A stretch of DNA of 64,000 bases from an uncultured Desulfuromonas sp. (lineage in GTDB: Bacteria > Desulfobacterota > Desulfuromonadia > Desulfuromonadales > Desulfuromonadaceae): the NCBI RefSeq assembly GCF_963678835.1, contig NZ_OY787469.1:1984001-2048000 (forward strand), written 5' to 3'. Both the position numbers and the translations under genes were made by a program. Each line of letters opens with the position of its first letter. Positions within the stretch are counted from its first letter, which is position 1. Below are positions 51,514-56,625 of the stretch, piece by piece. A model generated the notes under the pieces. That model did not search any database. It saw nothing but the letters and a program-made list of their open reading frames with translations, and was not told where the DNA came from.

Positions 51514-51876
51514 ATGTTATCTGACGAATCGCCCCTTTTCTCCAAATCCTCTGATTTTATTGATTGGCTCCTGAGCGTGACCAATCATTTTCCGCGCAGT
51601 CAACGACTGGTGATCACCAAGCGCCTGCTTGACGCCGCTCTTGATTTTCAGGAGCGATTGCTCGAAGCCGTTCATAACTCGTTCCGCCACCAGCAGAGCA
51701 AACTTGATCAGGCGGACAGCGAACTGGACAAAGTGCGCTTCTACCTGCGGATGGCTGCACGCAAGCAATGGTTGAATGAGGGACAGTATGAACATGCCGC
51801 CAGAATGGTCAGTGAACTCGGCAGACTGCTCGGCGGCTGGAAAAAAGGCAATCAGCGGTCTGACACCGCTTTTTGA
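51514..51876 (+). CDS. avd: DGR accessory variability determinant (Avd)
   Basis: A 120-residue all-helical protein. The family marks are FIDWLLSVTNHFPRSQR near the start (the FPRSQR motif), a long amphipathic helix (LLDAALDFQERLLEAV), and the C-terminal EHAARMVSELGRLLGGW. Avd proteins form a pentameric four-helix-bundle barrel that binds the DGR reverse transcriptase and the template RNA, and are needed for mutagenic retrohoming. The template repeat starts 17 bases after this stop, and the target and reverse transcriptase genes follow on the same strand, as expected for a DGR. The alternative TTG start at 51511 adds one residue. Confidence 0.92.
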   Translation: MLSDESPLFSKSSDFIDWLLSVTNHFPRSQRLVITKRLLDAALDFQERLLEAVHNSFRHQQSKLDQADSELDKVRFYLRMAARKQWLNEGQYEHAARMVSELGRLLGGWKKGNQRSDTAF

Positions 51877-51893
51877 CGGGGCGTTTCGAAAGC

Positions 51894-52019
51894 GACCGGG
51901 TTTTGCGCGGCGGCTCTTACAACAATAATGCAGAGACTCTGCGTTGCGGCGCGCGCAACAGGAACAATGCAAATAACAGGAACAACAACATCGGGTTTCG
52001 TATTGTGGTCGCTCACGGA
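51894..52019 (+). repeat. DGR template repeat (TR), 126 bp
   Basis: Aligns without gaps to the variable repeat at 55292-55417. Read in the VR frame it encodes 11 AAC/AAT codons (for example YNNN and NRNNANNRNNN), the adenine-rich codons that DGRs use because AAY codons can mutate widely without making stops. Identical blocks flank the variable core: cgggttttgcgcggcggc on the left and gggtttcgtattgtggtcgc on the right. By hand count 27 positions differ, 21 of them at TR adenines. Confidence 0.95.
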
Positions 52020-52186
52020 TTTTGTTTTTCACCGGAAATGGTCGGCGGTTACGGCTTCCGGCCCGAGGTTTGAAAACCGGCGCGAAACGTTCCGGGCCGC
52101 GTTCCGTGATAACGATGGGACCGGGCACATAGGCCAGGCCCGCTCCCTGCCTGATGACATTGGGCTGGAGCGGGCAGGGGCTACAA
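52020..52186 (+). ncRNA. DGR RNA spacer region between TR and target gene
   Basis: About 167 non-coding bases directly after TR. In the Bordetella phage DGR, the spacer after TR is part of the structured RNA that binds Avd and reverse transcriptase and self-primes cDNA. Here the stretch can fold: cggcccg (52059-52065) pairs with cgggccg (52093-52099), enclosing ggttt/aaacc (52067-52078). The role is inferred from position and structure. Confidence 0.55.
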
Positions 52187-55100: not shown

Positions 55101-55489
55101 CCGGTATCCGTGGGACCTCTCCGGTCGGTTGCTTTCCAAAGGGAAAAAGCCCCTGCCAGGCGTTGGATATGGTCGGCAATGTCTGGGAGTGGACTTTGAG
55201 CCTGTACAAAGATGAAATCAACAGCCCGTACCCTTATCCGTATCGGGACTTTGAAGAGGAGAGAGAGCATGTGGAGGCTGCAAAAGATCGCGCCCGGGTT
55301 TTGCGCGGCGGCGGTTTCTTCGATTATGCAGAGTATCTGCGTTGCGTCGCGCGCTTCAGGCGCCTTGCGAACTTCAGGTACACCAACCTTGGGTTTCGTA
55401 TTGTGGTCGCTCCCGGTAAAGATTTTGGACTTTTGGTTTCTGGTGGGGTGGGGGCCGGGGAGGGGTTACCCCTCCCCGGAAACGCGTAA
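52187..55489 (+). CDS. NACHT NTPase fused to FGE-sulfatase (C-type lectin) domain: DGR target protein
   Basis: A protein of about 1100 residues. ATG 52187 follows AGGGG by six bases; ATG 52154 and 52211 are alternatives. The first 290 residues are mostly helical and unrecognised, and might be an effector or oligomerisation part. A NACHT-type STAND ATPase follows: Walker A GDPGFGKST (about 308), Walker B VVFFDGLDEV (about 404), VVTCRTYAYR and a helical extension to about 800. The C-terminus (about 812-1080) is a formylglycine-generating-enzyme/sulfatase-modifying fold (FCSVPQGPFLMGDD, LPSEAEWEKAARGG, DMVGNVWEWTLS, VLRGGGF, LGFRIVVAP), here used as a C-type-lectin-like binding domain. Residues about 1036-1077 are the variable repeat. 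No membrane segment or signal peptide is seen, so it is probably cytoplasmic. Confidence 0.92.
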   Translation: MNIDNGGDMVLESFCVGVASSLTANIVEGLSGAVGRRLRKCLGSEEKNRQRKALEECMKASLRIVLPLWQETGQDELGILEVFFKDKDVGQQFSLLLQNEEPDLALLEEIFCEHGGDIETLQGFTFRRGMELIADSFVTAMLQHSELQETINTYQLVLQTRYLQAGLQGQERLGDLVQDVLDELRQHPQKLADTLSCDIGKALLEISAEQDRNETNGQLERYLATLIARCNKLEDLPVIVDTLDAVPMIPLCDVFTKMHLAHIVRGKNESLEQALIAPEKETNKSRDDVVPITALEAMGVLPRLVILGDPGFGKSTLVDHAATQLALVQSGQPFDREQLPGWNSEGAGLPVRIVLREFATFLNGGEKGCAGDVWDYIRERLLKEWGMPEVFDVIRNTLWQQGGVVFFDGLDEVSESDQKKRTAIVSAIEAFSEPLHNVKIVVTCRTYAYREHSPWRLDKKLFPVFNLAPLNPDQISEFVGNYYPIIGQERCLPCQEIEAKSSFLCQTIWNNKHLLDLAQSPLLLTLMIFVDGTEPLPEGRAELYQRIIKLLLAKWQNRLLARTRKEVDAEHVLPLDVSLSCLEKSLAVVALEAHERQGADSKERTGKSADIEKRTFLATLAESMAKERITDAWYVAEKALEYFEQRAGILSQKENGENCIFSFFHKSFQEYLAAWRLINEVDGGVDLLCEKITQDQDWWREVLKLGAAIGKPEHVTRIIENLFPRTITTENIEVGLLIAEVVHESAYKKVASDTKADRFGNYKNAFEAVRKGLSCAIESDLTITQRVAAANALAMLGDPRPGVGCDGKGLPDIRFCSVPQGPFLMGDDADGDFKRHEHTIEKPYWIGQYPITVEQFRAFCQASGYQPQDRNSLAGIANHPVVWVSIRDARYFCGWLQEQWQTRLPEGYEVRLPSEAEWEKAARGGSLDQPYPEPCAINVLQPLRAATGCFDPRRYPWGDDGPLAEHANCPDTGIRGTSPVGCFPKGKSPCQALDMVGNVWEWTLSLYKDEINSPYPYPYRDFEEEREHVEAAKDRARVLRGGGFFDYAEYLRCVARFRRLANFRYTNLGFRIVVAPGKDFGLLVSGGVGAGEGLPLPGNA
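55292..55417 (+). repeat. DGR variable repeat (VR) in the target gene
   Basis: The 126-bp partner of the template at 51894-52019. Codons that are AAY in the template here read Phe, Asp, Tyr, Phe, Arg, Leu, Phe, Tyr, Thr and Asn. Invariant flanks keep VLRGG and GFRIVVA, the structural core of the FGE fold. The right block gggtttcgtattgtggtcgc is the probable initiation-of-mutagenic-homing region. Confidence 0.95.
55455..55479 (+). promoter_or_regulatory. GC-rich perfect hairpin downstream of VR
   Basis: ccggggagggg, tta, cccctccccgg: a perfect 11-base stem with a three-base loop, 37 bases after VR and inside the last codons of the target gene. In other DGRs a hairpin or cruciform just after VR raises retrohoming efficiency, so this is its likely counterpart. 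Confidence 0.7.
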
Positions 55490-55491
55490 GC

Positions 55492-56625
55492 GTGCCGATG
55501 AACTCTGATGATCTCTACAGCCGTATTTGCCGGTGGGATAATCTGCTGCTTGCCTGGCGTAAGGCTGCAAAAGGCAAACGCGGCACCGCGCCTGTCGCCC
55601 ATTTTGAATATCGTTTGGAAGATAATCTGGTGCAATTGGGCGAAGAGCTGCACAGCCAAACCTACTGCCCCGGCTCCTACCACAGCTTTTATATCCACGA
55701 TCCCAAACGTCGGCTGATCAGCGCTGCTCCTTTTCGCGACCGGGTGGTACACCATGCCTTGTGCCATGTCATTGAGCCCCTCTTTGAACGGCGCTTTGTT
55801 ACCGACAGTTTCGCCAACCGGGTCGGTAAGGGCAACCACCGTGCACTGGATCGCGCCCAGCACTATGCCCGCCAATTCCCCTATGTACTTACGCTGGATC
55901 TGCAACAGTATTTTCCCTCCATTGACCATGCTCTTTTGCGTGCTGTTCTGGCGCGACAGATTAAGGATAAAAACGTTCTGAAACTGATTGACCTCATTCT
56001 CGAAAGCGGGCGCGGCGTATTGGATGGAGAATACACCATGCGCTGGTTTTCCGGCGATGATCTGTTGGCCGTGGAGCGAGCGCGTGGTCTGCCCATCGGT
56101 AACCTGACTTCGCAGTTCTGGGCCAACTGTTACCTGGATCCTTTTGACCATTTCGTCAAACGTGAGCTGCGTTGCCCCGGCTATGTGCGCTACGTGGATG
56201 ATATGCTGCTGTTCAGTAATGATAAAAAAGAGCTGTGGCTGTGGAAAAAAGAGGTCATGACCCGACTGGCGGACCTGCGCCTGACCGTGCATGAGCGCTC
56301 GGCCCAGGTGCGACCGGTGCGCGAAGGAATGCCGTTTCTGGGGTTTGTCGTGTATCCACACAAACGTCGCTTGAAGCGACGCAAAGAGATTGCCTACGCC
56401 CGTAAATTGCGGAAGCTGTTGTCAGAGGTGGAAACTGGCAATGCTTCGCCGGAAACTGTGGTCGCCTCCGTCAATGGCTGGTGCAATCATGTTGTTCACG
56501 GCAATACGGTGGGACTACGTCGGGCTGTCCTCAGAAATATTTTAGCATTCAGCCGGAATCCCGCGATCAACAGGGCGATTGAACATGCGCTGGGACCGAT
56601 GGTGTTAAAGAAAAAAACTCCGTGA
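55492..56625 (+). CDS. DGR reverse transcriptase
   Basis: A 377-residue reverse transcriptase. Motif A LTLDLQQYFPSID holds catalytic Asp about 136. The motif LPIGNLTSQFWANCYLDPFD (IGNLTSQ about 202-208) replaces the QGxxxSP of other retroelement enzymes and is diagnostic for DGR reverse transcriptases. The catalytic YVDD is at 234-237 (YVRYVDDMLLFS), and the thumb includes PFLGFVVYPHKRRLKRR. There is no endonuclease, maturase or RNase H domain. It starts at GTG 55492 (or ATG 55498) two bases after the target stop without a clear ribosome site, suggesting coupling to translation of the target. It copies TR RNA with adenine-specific errors. Confidence 0.95.
   Translation: MPMNSDDLYSRICRWDNLLLAWRKAAKGKRGTAPVAHFEYRLEDNLVQLGEELHSQTYCPGSYHSFYIHDPKRRLISAAPFRDRVVHHALCHVIEPLFERRFVTDSFANRVGKGNHRALDRAQHYARQFPYVLTLDLQQYFPSIDHALLRAVLARQIKDKNVLKLIDLILESGRGVLDGEYTMRWFSGDDLLAVERARGLPIGNLTSQFWANCYLDPFDHFVKRELRCPGYVRYVDDMLLFSNDKKELWLWKKEVMTRLADLRLTVHERSAQVRPVREGMPFLGFVVYPHKRRLKRRKEIAYARKLRKLLSEVETGNASPETVVASVNGWCNHVVHGNTVGLRRAVLRNILAFSRNPAINRAIEHALGPMVLKKKTP

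Follow-up and report, generated by a model that had tools for sequence, protein, structure and literature searches.

We analysed a 64,000-nucleotide stretch from the genome of an uncultured Desulfuromonas sp., hereafter called the window (bases 1984001-2048000 of contig C1; the genome comprises 4.5 Mb in two contigs), which carries a diversity-generating retroelement (DGR). A first-pass annotation of the letters had described a complete DGR made up of an accessory gene (avd), a template repeat (TR), a target gene bearing a variable repeat (VR), and a reverse transcriptase (RT), and we find all four on the + strand with their frames open. It had not mentioned the NACHT/FGE character of the target, the hairpin after the VR, the RNA spacer, or the empty site in congeners, which are described below. 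The avd gene (51514..51876, +; TTG at 51511 is an alternative start) encodes an accessory protein of 120 aa that scores 91.2 bits against the NCBIfam model DivGenRetAVD (NF033474; cut-off 80) and 70.5 bits against bAvd (PF22296; cut-off 40). The RT gene (55492..56625, +) starts at GTG 55492 or ATG 55498, and its product scores above the RVT_1 cut-off. The best solved relative of the RT is chain A of 8ub7 (E 8e-43), and chain B of the same entry carries the name Avd; we take 8ub7 to be the DGR complex of the Bordetella phage BPP-1, and chain A to be its DGR RT. The motifs IGNLTSQ and YVDD, which had also been reported, are located at residues 202 and 234 (numbered from GTG 55492). No second close RT was found in the 4.5-Mb genome, where the next RT is 29% identical. 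From the RT matches listed, 22 of 120 were taken as set A1.

The TR (51892..52018, +) lies downstream of avd, and the VR (55290..55416, +) occupies the 3′ end of the target gene. The repeat pair is therefore present as annotated, although it measures 127 nt rather than 126. The two copies are identical at 101 of 127 nt and share an intact, identical 3′ run of 22 nt. Twenty of the 26 mismatches fall at adenines of the TR, which account for 33 of its 127 bases (hypergeometric p 6e-10). A search of the genome for further repeats returned one TR and one VR only, all other matches being at the level of chance (E 1.7 or worse).

The target gene (52187..55489, +; alternative start ATG 52211) encodes a protein with an N-terminal helical domain, a NACHT domain, and a C-terminal fold of the formylglycine-generating enzyme (FGE)/C-type-lectin kind. 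It is this lectin-fold end that carries the VR, followed by a hairpin. The NACHT domain scores 30.4 bits against PF05729 (cut-off 26.7), and the motifs GDPGFGKST at residue 308 and FFDGLDE at residue 406 are presumably Walker A and Walker B. Matches to EruA and HyoA extend across the same part of the protein, far under their respective cut-offs. The core of the target resembles NOD-like receptors (NLRs), and the tip that is diversified is TvpA/FGE-like. A search of solved structures with the VR piece, directed at the catalytic cysteines of FGE, found no structure. Homologues were drawn from the listed target matches as two sets (A2, 49 of 120; A3, 45 of 120). The N-terminus of the target is matched by a homologue profile built without P0001 and P0002, the latter being the closest target (E 3.3e-28), and an N-terminal model made from the homologues matched only the window among the loci (E 1e-4). 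Across the phylum, the combination of this N-terminus with NACHT occurs in one genome out of 395, namely that of the window (E 1e-50). Targets of the relatives carry other N-terminal domains, namely DUF4062 in two and PNP_UDP_1 in one of the nine scanned.

The hairpin that follows the VR (55455..55479, +) begins 38 nt past its end and consists of a GC-rich stem of 11 bp with a 3-nt loop. A perfect stem of at least 8 bp lies within 120 nt of 26 of the 52 VRs surveyed, the window included, compared with 2.7% of 520 random stretches (the survey required 120 nt of DNA beyond the VR). In BPP-1, a hairpin of this type is described as required for efficient homing, in the portion of PMC3240598 drawn on here, and by analogy the hairpin at 55455-55479 is likely an element of the retrohoming site. 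Its dimensions differ from those of phage DGRs, which have stems of 7-10 bp and a 4-nt GRNA loop.

The spacer downstream of the TR (52019..52186, +) contains a covarying stem (52040-52049/52054-52063) and a terminal hairpin (52130-52146/52167-52183). A profile built from the spacers of 44 relatives, with the window left out, matches 52003-52174 (E 4.3e-18 in a search of 282 nt). All 45 spacers match this profile at E 1e-3 or better, 44 of them being those from which it was built, and some of the matches are partial. In a set of 18 of the 45 spacers (A4), three helices are paired in 86.8% of cells and contain 53 doubly changed cells, compared with a mean of 18 after shuffling (none of 500 shuffles reached 53) and 10 to 25 when the helices were slid. 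The spacer is thus likely part of the template RNA, and the corresponding spacer of BPP-1 folds and recruits RT-Avd, as the consulted part of PMC12875486 describes. An Rfam scan of 51240-57050 gave seven matches, all below their gathering scores and none touching the spacer, and this covarying RNA, conserved in the DGR lineage of the window, offers a way to search for further systems of the kind. The first start codon of the target lies 3 nt beyond the terminal hairpin, a position taken by the RT in relatives arranged as avd-TR-RT (L054 and L077, for example). The template unit is therefore whole, with the target placed between that unit and the RT.

The order of the cassette had been annotated as unlike that of Bordetella. 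This holds true, and the arrangement avd-TR-target-RT is also unlike that of all 45 classified relatives. The survey covered the window together with 80 relative loci; a TR/VR pair could be classified in 46 of them and not in the other 35, and the commonest orders among the 46 were target-RT-avd-TR (n=18) and target-TR-avd(reversed)-RT (n=10). In some rows, 'TR-TR' stands for a single TR that was entered twice with bounds that differ slightly. DGR cassettes are known to be variable in their order, with 122 patterns among 948 DGRs given in the part of PMC6642488 cited here.

The element had further been called cellular, and the kinship of its RT bears this out. RT loci from genomes are 53-66% identical to the window RT and belong, by their titles, mostly to metagenome-assembled genomes (MAGs) of Chloroflexota (best 80 of 536), the best cellular MAG loci reaching 66%. 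In a tree of 122 RTs, selected from 170 by dropping the viral loci beyond L165 and all pieces of <250 aa, the window RT lies inside a 79-row clade of genome loci with an SH-aLRT support of 99. Its companions there include RTs from loci with a TR/VR pair, in keeping with its assignment as a DGR enzyme. Its nearest neighbour is L048 of KSB1 (support 86), and no starred set of at most half the rows holds it. Because similarity guided the choice of the comparison set, the tree shows kinship rather than the full make-up of the lineage. Relatives of the RT are also encoded by 115 stretches of viral contigs, as would suit a remnant of a phage or prophage DGR. However, the 80 viral loci that were kept are at most 46% identical to the window RT, all 24 phage records fall below 60%, and all 36 viral rows used in the tree lie outside the window's clade. 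Furthermore, no phage family labelled structural was among the matches of the eight flanking proteins (several of the matched phage families are of unknown function), the target is a NACHT protein, and the site between acnB and a glycosyltransferase gene is found empty in relatives. We consequently regard a phage remnant as highly improbable, and rejected a phage origin on the RT kinship with cellular MAGs, the low identity of viral relatives, and the nature of the flanks. Among plasmids, relatives amounted to 13 records; none reaches 60% identity, and the best, a cyanobacterial one, is at 45%.

In the best-supported model for the locus, mutagenic retrohoming acts on the sensor end of an NLR-like protein. 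We consider it rather probable that the locus is a complete cellular DGR whose VR, forming the FGE-like end of a NACHT protein, is predicted to be rewritten at adenines by the RT and Avd, and whose target likely serves as a variable NLR-like phage sensor. According to this model, avd, TR, and spacer would be transcribed as a single template RNA, the folded spacer would recruit RT-Avd, and cDNA carrying random bases opposite adenines would replace the VR beside the hairpin that follows it. With its lectin-like surface altered in this way, the target would bind a new ligand, upon which the NACHT domain would oligomerise and the N-terminal helical domain would signal or kill.

Several known systems resemble parts of this arrangement. 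The cassette is similar to the NACHT/C-type-lectin DGRs described by Dore et al. 2024, so that its kind is known and its order unusual. Those DGRs, of clade 5, are cellular and have NACHT/STAND (signal transduction ATPases with numerous domains) targets with C-type lectins, for example DGR 3 of Thiohalocapsa PB-PSB1; as here, NACHT is central and the lectin fold that bears the VR is C-terminal (PMC10907252). The same source, in the part used here, describes the N-terminus of clade 5 targets as often uncharacterised and their hosts as including filamentous Chloroflexi, and reports two targets as common in clade 5D, whereas the window has a single target between spacer and RT. With BPP-1 the locus shares the avd-TR-spacer unit, homologues of RT and Avd, a GC-rich hairpin after the VR, and a structured spacer (features taken from portions of PMC3240598 and PMC12875486). 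It differs from BPP-1 in being chromosomal rather than phage-borne, in having a NACHT target rather than a tail protein, and in placing the target between TR-spacer and RT. Compared with TvpA of Treponema denticola (2y3c), the diversified tip is here fused behind an NLR-like NACHT core. Like the antiviral STAND and bacterial NACHT proteins (Avs, bNACHT), the target combines an N-terminal domain, a NACHT NTPase, and a C-terminal sensor-like region in one chain. Their sensors, however, are repeats such as TPR, whereas here the sensor is an FGE fold diversified by a DGR. An anti-phage role of the target is inferred.

Several observations weigh against a DGR-driven phage sensor. The resemblance to NLRs is at the level of domains, with root-mean-square deviations of 5 to 14 Å. 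NNH2 does not match the N-terminus of the target even at E 1, and in a scan at E 0.001, NNH2 was present in 23 of 44 homologues and absent from the window protein scanned alongside them. Within the spacer, 12 pairs show at least one double change, and two of the six slid versions reach the same figure, albeit with far fewer such cells. The separation of spacer from RT by the target, unseen in the 45 classified relatives, could affect expression. That NACHT proteins diversified by DGRs act as sensors is itself a published proposal only (Dore et al. 2024, PMC10907252, in the part cited). Finally, PADLOC models gave no match to the target at E 0.01, and neither target nor Avd was matched in a scan of these two proteins. 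The last result would also suit a target diversified for a recognition task outside phage defence, for example to discriminate kin or to signal via NACHT in response to a ligand, and the consulted part of PMC10907252 gives kin/non-kin recognition as an alternative role. Set against this, the tripartite NACHT plan matches that of bacterial anti-phage NACHT proteins (the EruA and HyoA matches being far below their cut-offs), and the DUF4062 and PNP_UDP_1 N-termini of relatives sit in the same scaffold, as would be expected if effectors were swapped. We therefore think a non-defence role unlikely, and favour the phage sensor.

A further point against the sensor being diversified at present concerns the non-adenine positions. 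The VR differs from the TR at 6 of 95 of these (6 of 94 within the 127-nt repeat), the second highest value of 53 pairs, for which the median is ~1%. Twenty-five pairs have no such difference and 46 have two or fewer. The pairs compared were at least 90 nt long and had at least five adenine changes. As the score by which they were initially detected penalises non-adenine changes, pairs in an advanced state of decay may have escaped the survey. One pair of the 53 (L094 7669/11295) is a VR versus VR comparison, and was left out of the majority-state, hairpin, and order analyses. Based on the majority state of the relatives, the VR changed at 51916 and 51992 and the TR probably at 51937 and 51974, with the other two of the six unclear. 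Full rewriting would erase non-adenine differences, and both copies have therefore likely drifted since the last full conversion. The VR has thus likely not been wholly rewritten for long, and bears the signs of a long pause in rewriting.

The annotation had called every part intact and the element probably active; the parts are indeed open, whereas present activity is put in question by these six differences. It is conceivable, if not our preferred reading, that a formerly active DGR is now dormant, its genes open, its VR no longer rewritten, and its receptor fixed or drifting. The excess of non-adenine differences and the drift of both copies argue for dormancy, and a relative suggests that such decay occurs: in the Nitrospirales locus L068 (8898-9025), one VR has one and a second VR seven non-adenine differences to the same TR, the second being perhaps a VR that was abandoned in nature. 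On the other hand, RT and Avd are open with their motifs present, the hairpin and the identical 3′ run are intact, and non-adenine changes occur in 46.3% of published pairs (868/1,874), at about 1.5 per pair, in the part of PMC6642488 cited. We thus read the DGR as competent by sequence.

The cassette lies in an inserted segment (51299..56973, no strand assigned) between acnB and a glycosyltransferase gene. Nine congeners were examined; acnB was obtained from eight (none from G003), and three align across both flanks. All three (G002, G008, G001) show the empty site, in which acnB is followed by its terminator and then by a DUF3524 glycosyltransferase gene, with the DGR absent. The remaining five align on the acnB side only, with no DGR match in that stretch, and were therefore excluded from the empty-site count. 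Given the empty sites, the cassette was likely gained, and inheritance from the ancestor of the genus is disfavoured. Named homologues of the glycosyltransferase, the best of them at 77%, mark the host as a likely Desulfuromonas relative. The acnB terminator hairpin forms the left border (51265..51298, +), and further copies at 56797-56830 and 56974-57007 stand at the right, making three in the window. The loops of the two right copies are reversed in orientation relative to the left copy and to the empty site. Two intergenic, dispersed repeats of ~155 nt, of subfamily A (56636..56791, +) and subfamily B (56822..56976, +), close the right end of the insert. The stretch 56636-56976 has at least 45 matches, itself included (E 1e-6; 40 of 211 candidates scored), and these repeats may have played a part in the insertion event.

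We suggest, only tentatively, that the locus is a self-contained, horizontally moving, hypermutating NLR cassette, composed of a structured template RNA, a receptor, and a rewriting enzyme, with swappable N-terminal effectors. If so, it would represent an adaptive NLR-type immune receptor in a likely single-celled bacterium, with the receptor expressed between template RNA and enzyme. To our knowledge, Desulfuromonas-like hosts are not known to be multicellular. DGR-diversified NACHT receptors are candidates for adaptive NLR-type immunity in bacteria, as proposed in the part of PMC10907252 used here. The cassette is compact: it has a single template and a single target, its borders are clear, and close relatives show the site without it, which makes it a convenient unit for laboratory transfer and testing.

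Other DGRs, with the canonical arrangement VR-avd-TR-RT, are present in two congeners (L210 in G009 and L211 in G003), and a different element in the same arrangement is found in L212, from the same taxonomic order. None of the three RTs belongs to the clade of the window RT, and that of L211 sits on a long branch. As congeners carry other DGRs, the genus likely gained such elements more than once. Another RT, ~31% identical to the window RT, gave twelve matches in G002, of the same genus, and in L026, L032, L035, and L037-L039. The twelve are nearly equal in score and therefore likely belong to an element present in several copies, which may be a group II intron.
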